From positions 1 through 64,000 of the forward strand of contig CANNER010000003.1 of assembly GCA_947503715.1 (NCBI GenBank): a DNA stretch of 64,000 nucleotides, in the 5' to 3' direction. This document shows positions 19,563 through 59,384 of the stretch, piece after piece (position 1 is the first letter of the stretch; each line of letters starts with the position of its first letter). Below the pieces are notes generated by a model, which searched no databases, was not told the origin of the DNA, and saw only the letters and a list, made by a program, of their open reading frames with translations. The position numbers and the translations under genes were made by a program. Source of the stretch: an uncultured Caulobacterales bacterium. GTDB taxonomy: Bacteria > Pseudomonadota > Alphaproteobacteria > Caulobacterales > Maricaulaceae.

Positions 19563-22415
<2,853 letters not shown>

Positions 22416-22493: not shown

Positions 22494-22534
22494 TGTCACC
22501 CCGCACAAGCCCGGAGGGCGAAGATGCGGGGCCT
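22494..22534 (+). repeat. 41-nt palindromic repeat, copy 1
   Basis: Short REP-like element whose ends CCCCGCA and TGCGGGG pair to form a hairpin. The same 41 nt occur at 59344-59384 on the opposite strand with three differences. In both places it lies 145-180 bp upstream of a copy of the candidate structured RNA and points the same way relative to it. Confidence 0.8.
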
Positions 22535-22562
22535 GTCGTTTACGGACTAAACTCAAGAAACA

Positions 22563-22646
22563 CCGTCATTACCGCCCTTGTGGCGGTAATCCATGCGATG
22601 GTCGAACCTTGGTTATGGATTACCGCCACAAGGGCGGTAATGACGG
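22563..22646. repeat. Perfect 32-bp inverted repeat with 20-nt loop
   Basis: The arms 22563-22594 and 22615-22646 are exact reverse complements. Each arm contains a smaller palindrome, ACCGCC-CTTGT-GGCGGT. An RNA or single strand from here would form an unusually long hairpin. There is no T run after it on either strand, so it does not look like a terminator. It may be a mobile palindromic element or a processing/regulatory structure. Confidence 0.85.
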
Positions 22647-22699
22647 AGAAGAGAGAGACGGGCTGTTGCCCAATCCCCGTTTATAAAAATAATACCCCC

Positions 22700-23119
22700 G
22701 CACTTATCCAGCCCGGGCTACATTCAACTCGTTCTTTCGGACATGGGACAGGCAAGTGATCGTTGGCGTGTCGTGCCGAAGGACGGTGTGCTTAGAAGCA
22801 TCTTGTAACGGAGATGTGGAGGAGCCCAGCCGCGAGCGCCTGACTCTCTGGAACGAGAGCAGTCAAGTAAGGCCGTCGTTGGAAAGACACCGCCGCGTTG
22901 GTTTGTGTATTTGTTTTCAACAATTACACGAAGCGCAAGGGTTATTGTTGCCTAGCAAACAGTAATAACCCGAGATTTGGAAGATGTAACGGTTTCGCCG
23001 ACTAAGTTGATTTTTCTATTAGAAAATTCAACGACCCAAACCTCACGTGCTTGGCCCCTGCGTAAAAACTTTTTTCTCTTGGTTCCCCATCGCGGGAGGC
23101 CACCACGCGGACGTCCCAT
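22700..23119 (+). ncRNA. Candidate large structured RNA, copy 1
   Basis: No gene is seen between uvrA and the DUF1993 gene (770 bp). This part is a diverged, oppositely oriented copy of 58.66-59.24 kb. Conserved blocks keep their order: 22671-22693 (promoter-like, TTTATAAA), 22731-22752, 22851-22860, about 22888-22914, 22972-23002 (30 of 31 nt identical to copy 2), 23041-23067 and 23085-23117. Ends pair as ATGGGAC (22743-22749) with GTCCCAT (23113-23119). Hairpin 22841-22865 (TGACTCTCT loop AGAG-C-AGTCA) keeps the GAACGAGAGC loop side while its outer helix differs from copy 2 but still pairs. A second hairpin has GGGTTATT/AATAACCC. The start is set about seven bases after a -10-like AATAAT. 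No clear terminator was found. The family is not recognised. Confidence 0.5.
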
Positions 23120-23186
23120 TTATCAGGACAATCGCCTCCCCCGCCGCACGCTTAGATCGTCGGTTGCAGCCTTCGCTTGTCTAAAA

Positions 23187-23702
23187 TTAGAGGCCCCCGC
23201 CCCCAAAGTAATCGACCTTACCCAGCGGCACACCGTTATGACGGAGGATATTATAAACCGTTGTCACGTGGAAGTGGATATTGGGAAGAGTGAAGCCCGA
23301 AAGATAGGAAATACCCGTGAAATCCATTTCACCGCGCGGGCCCATCTTGACGGAAAATTCGCGGCTTTCCTTGCCATCCAAATCCGCCGAAGTGACGGTC
23401 GCCATATCCGCCTTGGCGCGCTCCAGAACCGCATGACATTCGGCAAAACTGGTCGGCGCGCCCTCATAGCTCGGCGGCTCAATTCCCGCGATGCGGAACG
23501 GCGCGTTCTTGGCGAGCTCGGCGCAGGTCTGGACCTGTTTCGCCAATGGCCACATATCCGGCGCCAGCCGCGCATTTAGAAAGACCTCCGACTCGATGCC
23601 ACGCTCCGCAGCATTGGCTTCCGCCTTGCGCAGAAGATGGGCGAGATTATCCAGCAGGCGTGGCAGGGCTTGGACGGCATTGGACATTGAGAGTGTGGAC
23701 AT
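23187..23702 (-). CDS. DUF1993 family protein
   Basis: A 171-residue cytoplasmic protein of the DUF1993 family, predicted to have a DinB-like four-helix fold. Recognisable segments are the start MSTLSMSNAVQALPRLLDNL, the LAPDMWPLAKQVQTCAELAK helix, and NIHFHVTTVYNILRHNGVPLGKVDYFGG near the end (His-rich, possibly metal-binding as in DinB-like proteins). AGGAGG lies five bases before the ATG. Enzymatic role unknown. It converges with the candidate RNA on the other strand. Confidence 0.87.
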   Translation of the reverse strand: MSTLSMSNAVQALPRLLDNLAHLLRKAEANAAERGIESEVFLNARLAPDMWPLAKQVQTCAELAKNAPFRIAGIEPPSYEGAPTSFAECHAVLERAKADMATVTSADLDGKESREFSVKMGPRGEMDFTGISYLSGFTLPNIHFHVTTVYNILRHNGVPLGKVDYFGGGGL

Positions 23703-58685: not shown

Positions 58686-59211
58686 GTGCGTTGGGCGCTA
58701 CCTAATGGCAGAATACGCAATGTGCAAGCCGTTTATCAGTTATGCGGATGCGCGAAAACTGCGACCGCCCATCTTGGGGCCGGCAGGGATCGAAAAAGAA
58801 GGGACTGTCCGCGTGGGGCCTCCAGCGATGGAGTACCAAGGGTAGGTCTTTCATCTTTGTTTTACGCAAAAGGCCATGCGCGTGAGGTCCGGGGAGAGGT
58901 CGGCGAAACCGTTACATCGTCCAAATCTCAGACTTCACCATTTCCAGGCGGCGAAGCCTTTGCGCTCTCGCATCGGGCTCACGCCAAATACAAGGCCACG
59001 CGGCAATGGTTTTTGATTGAACGGCCGGTCGAATAAACCCCAGAGTCTGCCCACTTGGAACAGCCGGTCGGCTCTCGTTCAAAAAGGTCCGGCTCAGTCC
59101 GACGTCTCACCGCCGGATGCTCAACCCCACCGTCCCCCAGACCAGCAGGTGAGCTCCTACCTGTCCCGTGTCTGAAAGAACGACTTAAACATATGCGCAT
59201 TGCGTTAAGTG
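58657..59211 (-). ncRNA. Candidate large structured RNA, copy 2
   Basis: No gene is seen between rpmF and arfB (825 bp). On the minus strand this is a diverged copy of 22.70-23.12 kb, in the same block order: 59240-59218 (TTTATAAA promoter-like), 59181-59160, 59080-59071 (GAACGAGAGC), 59009-58985, 58929-58899 (30 of 31 nt identical), 58887-58860 and 58835-58807. The ends GGGAC (59167-59163) and GTCCC (58805-58801) pair. The hairpin with loop side GAACGAGAGC is closed by AGCCGG/CCGGCT (59094-59089 with 59067-59062), quite different from the closing helix in copy 1, yet still paired. A -10-like TAGAAT precedes the proposed start, and a T-rich hairpin ends it. Length about 555 nt. The RNA class is not recognised. 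Confidence 0.55.
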
Positions 59212-59268
59212 GGGATCATTCTATTTATAAATGAGGATTGGCTACCAACCCTACCGACGACTTTCCAA

Positions 59269-59384
59269 TGTCATCCCGCACGCAACGCAGTGGAGATGCA
59301 GGACCTATCGTCAAATAACTTAAGCTAACGTTTTGTAATCGTTAGGCCCCGCATCTTCACCTTTCGGGCTTGTGCGGGGTGACA
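59269..59384. repeat. REP-like palindromic repeat doublet
   Basis: Two related short palindromic elements in inverted orientation: 59269-59306 and 59344-59384, about 37 bp apart. The second matches the element at 22494-22534 in 38 of 41 positions. The doublet lies upstream of copy 2 of the candidate RNA, as the single element does for copy 1. Nothing else is seen between 59385 and 59460. Confidence 0.8.

Follow-up and report, generated by a model that had tools for sequence, protein, structure and literature searches.

We describe a large structured RNA that forms a dispersed multicopy family in the genome of an uncultured Caulobacterales bacterium and in some of its relatives, and we consider it probable (roughly 70%) that this is a standalone, homodimeric RNA of the scaffold or binding-platform type, in the manner of OLE or GOLLD, which would be transcribed, pair with itself and switch its fold. 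It was recognized in a window of 64,000 nt, the whole stretch of DNA that was analysed. This reading draws on a widely dispersed RNA family, a structure backed by covariation, loop palindromes that are maintained while their letters change, two partner helices that are both conserved, a free-standing gene context, and fixed chromosomal positions combined with concerted evolution, all of which are directly observed and are presented below.

The original prediction stated that the gene-free stretch after uvrA matches, in opposite orientation, the gene-free stretch before rpmF, and this was borne out: the two stretches align end to end with co-linear blocks in the same order, and they are copies A and B of one RNA on opposite strands. 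Copy A, whose conserved and helix-bounded part was delimited by alignment, own-lineage structure and fold, occupies 22731-23117 of the plus strand, between uvrA (ending at 22415) and a convergent minus-strand gene at 23187-23702. Copy B occupies 58801-59181 of the minus strand, has a type-2 central module and the loop palindrome GAGCUC (59156-59151), and is directly followed by rpmF, also on the minus strand. The plus-strand conserved block at 22972-23002, which contains a hairpin CGGU/GCCG and is kept in 15 own copies, reproduces the identity noted earlier, 30 of 31 nt, with 58899-58929. Chance cannot account for the match of the two stretches: a genome search with the same sequence brings up dozens of additional places, the best of them at an E-value of 4e-95. 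As for the limits first proposed (22671-23120), the RNA does lie inside them, at 22731-23117, but 22671-22730 is promoter-like DNA and an extra conserved hairpin region is found at about 23118-23190.

Across the source genome the count of two becomes at least 35, and some marine bacteria related to Litorimonas carry about 40 copies per genome. In the source genome about 30 dispersed places match the copy query by sequence search, and a covariance model built on the 3' domain (R1) detects 35 loci at E <= 0.01, a number that rises to 42 when the limit is E <= 1. Litorimonas cladophorae, placed by the NCBI taxonomy in Maricaulales, Robiginitomaculaceae, has 43 copies, genomes of two other genera have 15 and 12, and two genomes of the same genus have 7 and 8. 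In three further genomes of this genus, all near-complete, no copy is found; copy numbers thus range from 0 to 43 inside one genus, and the RNA is dispensable in the lineage. The scan of the bacterial family found the RNA in 31 of 137 genomes and in 6 of 19 genera. Matches in the order sample (348 genomes) were confined to this same bacterial family, and no copy was found beyond it in the class sample (385 genomes) or the phylum sample (398), which makes zero copies in the approximately 1,100 genomes sampled outside and restricts the RNA to a single bacterial family. An origin as a phage or plasmid element was rejected, since viral contigs did not match the 21-nt signature pattern and the plasmids and phages searched gave no match either. 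Contigs of metagenome-assembled genomes, those of four of our genomes among others, often stop inside or beside these RNA genes. Assemblies therefore probably break at the repeats, and the counts for such genomes are lower bounds.

The RNA reading of the conserved stretches is strongly supported by covariation. RNAalifold, applied to 26 full-length copies whose central module is of the most frequent type, gave 74 pairs, 37 of them with compensatory double changes. Pairing is possible in 96.4% of the cells of this structure, as against 84.5% when partners are re-dealt, and double-change cells number 242 as against 79 in shuffles (none of 500 shuffles as high; slid controls at most 51), these controls not being phylogeny-aware and the cells not being independent, as paralogues share modules by conversion. 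When 15 copies of the source genome were aligned, 111 pairs were obtained, with 90% pairing, and copy A folds with a minimum free energy of -144.7 kcal/mol (z -4.69). A large multi-helix fold backed by covariation is therefore present, and the view that the stretch holds a large undescribed structured RNA gained support both from this extensive covariation among homologues and from the Rfam searches. In these, cmscan at gathering score found nothing relevant in 20 further loci or in the window, where the one match was a tRNA at another place, and searches with permissive filters gave chance matches only; known classes such as RNase P RNA, tmRNA, 6S, SRP, GOLLD, ROOL, OLE, HEARO and others were rejected on this basis. 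A protein-coding origin was also rejected, as conservation tracks helices rather than frames.

The fold begins with helix P1 and its hairpin P2. P3 then closes a multibranch domain, P6 closes a 3' domain that holds P7 and P8, and GUCCC comes last; in copy A all of these are on the plus strand. P1 (22733-22745 with 22772-22783) covaries between CGG/CCG and CAG/CUG and is rebuilt from other bases in distant genera. The multibranch domain (22784-22892; P3, 22784-22789 with 22887-22892) has exchangeable internal modules, and whole modules of types 1, 2 and 3 are swapped among copies, with type 1 in copy A. The 3' domain (22893-23110), identified by covariation and model R1, is closed by the eight pairs of P6 (22893-22900 with 23103-23110), which are 100% paired, four of them with compensatory changes. 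GUCCC (23113-23117) is complementary to GGGAC at 22745-22749, and a closing pseudoknot between them is possible, both strands being nearly invariant and offering little evidence by covariation. In the alignments most copies also have the conserved hairpin region after the core (23118-23190), with the pattern GCCGnCCCC...GGGCGGTCGCAG followed by AGC-TTTC-GCTTG, which is possibly a further 3' domain or a site of processing or termination. As a separate observation, small palindromic hairpins of the form GTGCATTTT...AAAATGCAC and its variants extend different hairpins or loops in different copies (five loci among others), as if a tiny mobile palindrome had entered loops of the RNA.

Hairpin P2, which follows GGGACAGG, varies in its letters among copies, and its tip is nearly always palindromic. 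At least 11 core palindromes occur: GAGCUC, GAGGCCUC, GACGUC, UGAUCA, CGAUCG, AGCGCU, GUAUAC, GUCGAC, GGCGCC, ACGCGU and UGUACA. Among 59 distinct hairpins, collected from 211 loci, 44 have a 6-nt Watson-Crick palindrome, as compared with 7.6-8.4 in shuffles (maximum 17); when G-U pairs are allowed the number becomes 53, as compared with 23-29, and the remaining 6 have no 6-nt palindrome even so. Hairpin P2 of copy A (22751-22764, plus strand) belongs to the second type, UGAUCG in its loop at 22757-22762 pairing with itself through one G-U. At the same loop position, genomes of distant genera use further palindromes, GCGCGC and GUCGAC in G034 and CGUACG and ACGCGU in G028, and a genome of the same genus (G004) has ACCGGU and ACAUGU. 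Because a single chain does not allow adjacent bases of a loop to pair with each other, pairing between two molecules is suggested, and the RNA would dimerise through this loop. As far as sequence can tell, the loop behaves as a symmetric kissing loop with palindrome switching; the palindrome could have some other symmetric purpose.

The 3' end of the RNA looks bistable. Strand X (23053-23062 in copy A, plus strand) is the ten bases directly before the UAAAAC stretch, strand Y (23081-23088) is directly before the CRUCGC loop, and strand Z (23091-23101) is complementary to both. RNAalifold preferred X:Z to the local Y:Z hairpin, and testing each by re-dealing partners over 67 distinct triples showed that both are conserved: X:Z has a mean of -11.8 kcal/mol as against -8.8 for re-dealt partners (z -8.0, 0 of 500), Y:Z has -9.0 as against -6.8 (z -9.0, 0 of 500), and the control X:Y gives z -1.9. 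The two helices overlap and are mutually exclusive. Since Y:Z is local it should form first, and X:Z, more stable on average, would follow.

Each copy appears to have its own promoter. A sigma-70-like -10 hexamer is located 6-7 bases before P1, with its A2 and T6 columns conserved in 29 own and 90 other copies. In copy A the promoter-like region (22670-22730, plus strand) contains TACATT at 22719-22724, which leaves 6 nt to the RNA start, with conserved CAATCCCCGTTTATAAAAATAATACCCCC upstream; in copy B (59182-59245, minus strand) it contains TATGTT at 59193-59188 with GAATGATCCCC upstream; and the Litorimonas group has an extended -10 (TGnTAnnnT) plus a conserved AGAATGATCC. Transcription likely starts at P1 because of the position of this hexamer, and the candidate transcript would have its 5' end at GUUCUUUC and its 3' end near GUCCC or the downstream hairpin. 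The next downstream gene is on the same strand in 58 of 95 cases (one-sided p 0.02) and convergent in the other 37, including copy A, which is at most a weak bias towards positions upstream of genes. The median distance from the RNA start to the downstream gene is 500 nt for same-strand and 431 nt for convergent genes, and some convergent genes lie within 315-450 nt of the RNA start; the RNA body fits between its neighbours. Because the neighbouring genes lie in every orientation, these are taken as standalone RNA genes. Flanking genes include degP/htrA, nrdB, msrA, an SDF symporter gene and purH; all ten that were sampled are housekeeping genes, with no transposase among them and no sign, in this sample, of a transposase or integrase association.

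Several further features of the surroundings were recorded. Homologues of degP/htrA, two degP groups among them, are directly downstream on the same strand at six loci in several genomes. Both copies in the window are closely preceded by REP-like repeats (22494-22646 and 59335-59384), which share a 50-nt element at 88%; a perfect 32-nt inverted repeat (22563-22594 / 22615-22646) is found upstream of copy A, and GC-rich repeats of a similar kind precede many other copies in the source genome. The window itself starts with about ten units of a tandem 8-nt repeat, CGACTGGG (1-88).

The positions of the RNA genes are fixed across genomes. In other genomes, 18 of 24 homologues of the genes flanking our own copies are close to the RNA, where 28% would be expected (p 2e-6), and side and strand are identical in 17 of these 18. 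In all 15 positional pairs the RNA resembles a paralogue from the same genome more than the copy at the corresponding position, and the nearest neighbour is within the same genome for 67 of 84 copies (16.5 after label shuffling, maximum 37). In recently shared pairs, similarity bins are 0.94-0.86 inside the RNA body and 0.72 just upstream, against a background of 0.69, and promoter and downstream DNA are at background similarity in most such pairs. Orthologous positions together with likeness within a genome constitute concerted evolution that does not extend beyond the RNA body, which homology-bounded gene conversion or RNA-templated copying would produce, the tract limits fitting both.

These patterns also have to be weighed under the main rival, namely that the RNA is a non-autonomous selfish mobile or repeat element with structure, spreading as RNA or DNA without benefit to the host. 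Dozens of copies, inconsistent orientation to genes and the range from 0 to 43 copies in one genus are what this predicts, copy number combined with orientation being the mark of such elements (PMC11109978), and likeness of recent copies over the RNA body only is what RNA-templated spread would leave. Conversion bounded by homology explains the same tract limits equally well, however, and a selfish element does not readily account for copies at orthologous sites that agree in side and strand, for an elaborate many-helix structure retained in copies that differ by 20-40%, for conserved promoter-like DNA at each copy, or for the ten sampled flanking genes, which are of housekeeping type without a transposase. 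We therefore regard it as unlikely, while giving it more weight than the two explanations that follow.

The bistable 3' end also invites the view that the RNA is a cis-acting leader of the downstream gene, like a long riboswitch or ribosomal leader, with X:Z and Y:Z as its expression platform. Copy B precedes rpmF, degP homologues are downstream in five syntenic loci, nrdB and other genes recur, and the same-strand excess is significant at the one-sided p of 0.02. A leader should always be in a 5' untranslated region, which the convergent genes, including that of copy A, contradict, and the downstream genes have no common pathway, while the RNA is far longer than usual riboswitches. The simple form of this view was rejected on the orientation statistics, and we hold the view as a whole to be improbable. 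Still more improbable is that the P2 palindrome is a DNA site within the RNA gene rather than an RNA-RNA contact. Palindromes are typical of the sites of dimeric DNA-binding regulators, yet one protein would fix the letters, which here vary freely over at least 11 cores without loss of symmetry, and the palindrome is always positioned at the loop of a covarying RNA hairpin.

At the sensitivity of our searches no Rfam family is related to the RNA by descent, and by behaviour it is nearest to OLE, GOLLD and ROOL. OLE dimerises through L9.3, a symmetric kissing loop in which the inner tetranucleotide alternates among GGCC, GAUC and AGCU, and palindrome switching in OLE L9.3 and GOLLD L21a has been used as evidence for intermolecular kissing loops, contacts that were seen by cryo-EM (PMC12286853). 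Both OLE and our RNA are large, lineage-restricted and non-coding with a palindrome-switching loop; our RNA differs in having no covariance-model match to OLE, in its tens of copies dispersed over a genome and in a set of at least 11 palindromes in the loop. Likewise ornate are GOLLD and ROOL, with conserved intermolecular kissing loops (the self-interacting loops of GOLLD being B8/B9), but they are RNAs of phages or prophages, whereas ours has no Rfam or phage match and a single candidate contact, which gives no evidence for a cage. In the HIV-1 DIS, a 6-nt palindrome flanked by purines in an apical loop drives homodimerisation (PMC7357161); this is an element of a viral leader, unrelated to our RNA in sequence and context. 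The smtA motif ('Soda Lake RNA'; over 350 nt, strongly covarying, found in a single genus) and other orphan large RNAs are long, covarying and taxonomically narrow like ours, although the smtA motif belongs to another lineage and neither multiple copies nor palindromic loops were reported for it (PMC11109978). MRSC-type motifs also have dozens of copies per genome, inconsistent orientation and covariation (PMC11109978), but the example described there consists of one long stem and is sometimes found close to transposases, whereas our RNA has 13 helices and promoter-like DNA, lies at orthologous sites and has no transposase among the ten flanking genes that were checked. A literature search that covered few subscription papers found no earlier description of the family. 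We regard it as a new class among the known ornate RNAs, and its dozens of dispersed paralogues per genome with diversified loop palindromes have no precedent in the literature examined.

In the explanation that we prefer, that of a standalone homodimeric RNA, each copy would be transcribed from its own promoter, starting at P1, into an intricately folded non-coding RNA of about 240-390 nt, or more in copies with inserted hairpins. The symmetric kissing loop of P2 would join it to a second copy bearing the same palindrome, and the 3' switch between X:Z and Y:Z would provide a kinetic fold and a final fold. The dimer would then act as an RNA scaffold or binding platform, our best guess by analogy for the cellular role, rather than regulating a gene in cis as a leader or encoding a protein. 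Conversion would keep the genomic copies alike and leave a few pairing classes per genome. A bolder extension, which we offer as a speculation that is rather unlikely to hold in full, is a multigene family of self-recognising RNAs, in which about 40 paralogues per genome are sorted by their palindromes into pairing classes, the transcribed body is copied through an RNA template, and one chromosome encodes orthogonal dimers or assemblies.

To our knowledge, oligomers made of RNA alone occur naturally in very few classes, among them bacterial OLE and the GOLLD and ROOL RNAs of phages and prophages. The presence of 43 copies in a named strain, Litorimonas cladophorae KCTC 23968, makes the claims presented here testable. 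Positions that are fixed and sequences that evolve in concert, yet copy numbers from 0 to 43 within one genus, pose an evolutionary puzzle. If our reading is true, dozens of paralogues per genome with varied self-complementary loops would be a natural library for the specificity of RNA-RNA recognition, and elaborate RNA assemblies would be able to grow into large chromosomal gene families.
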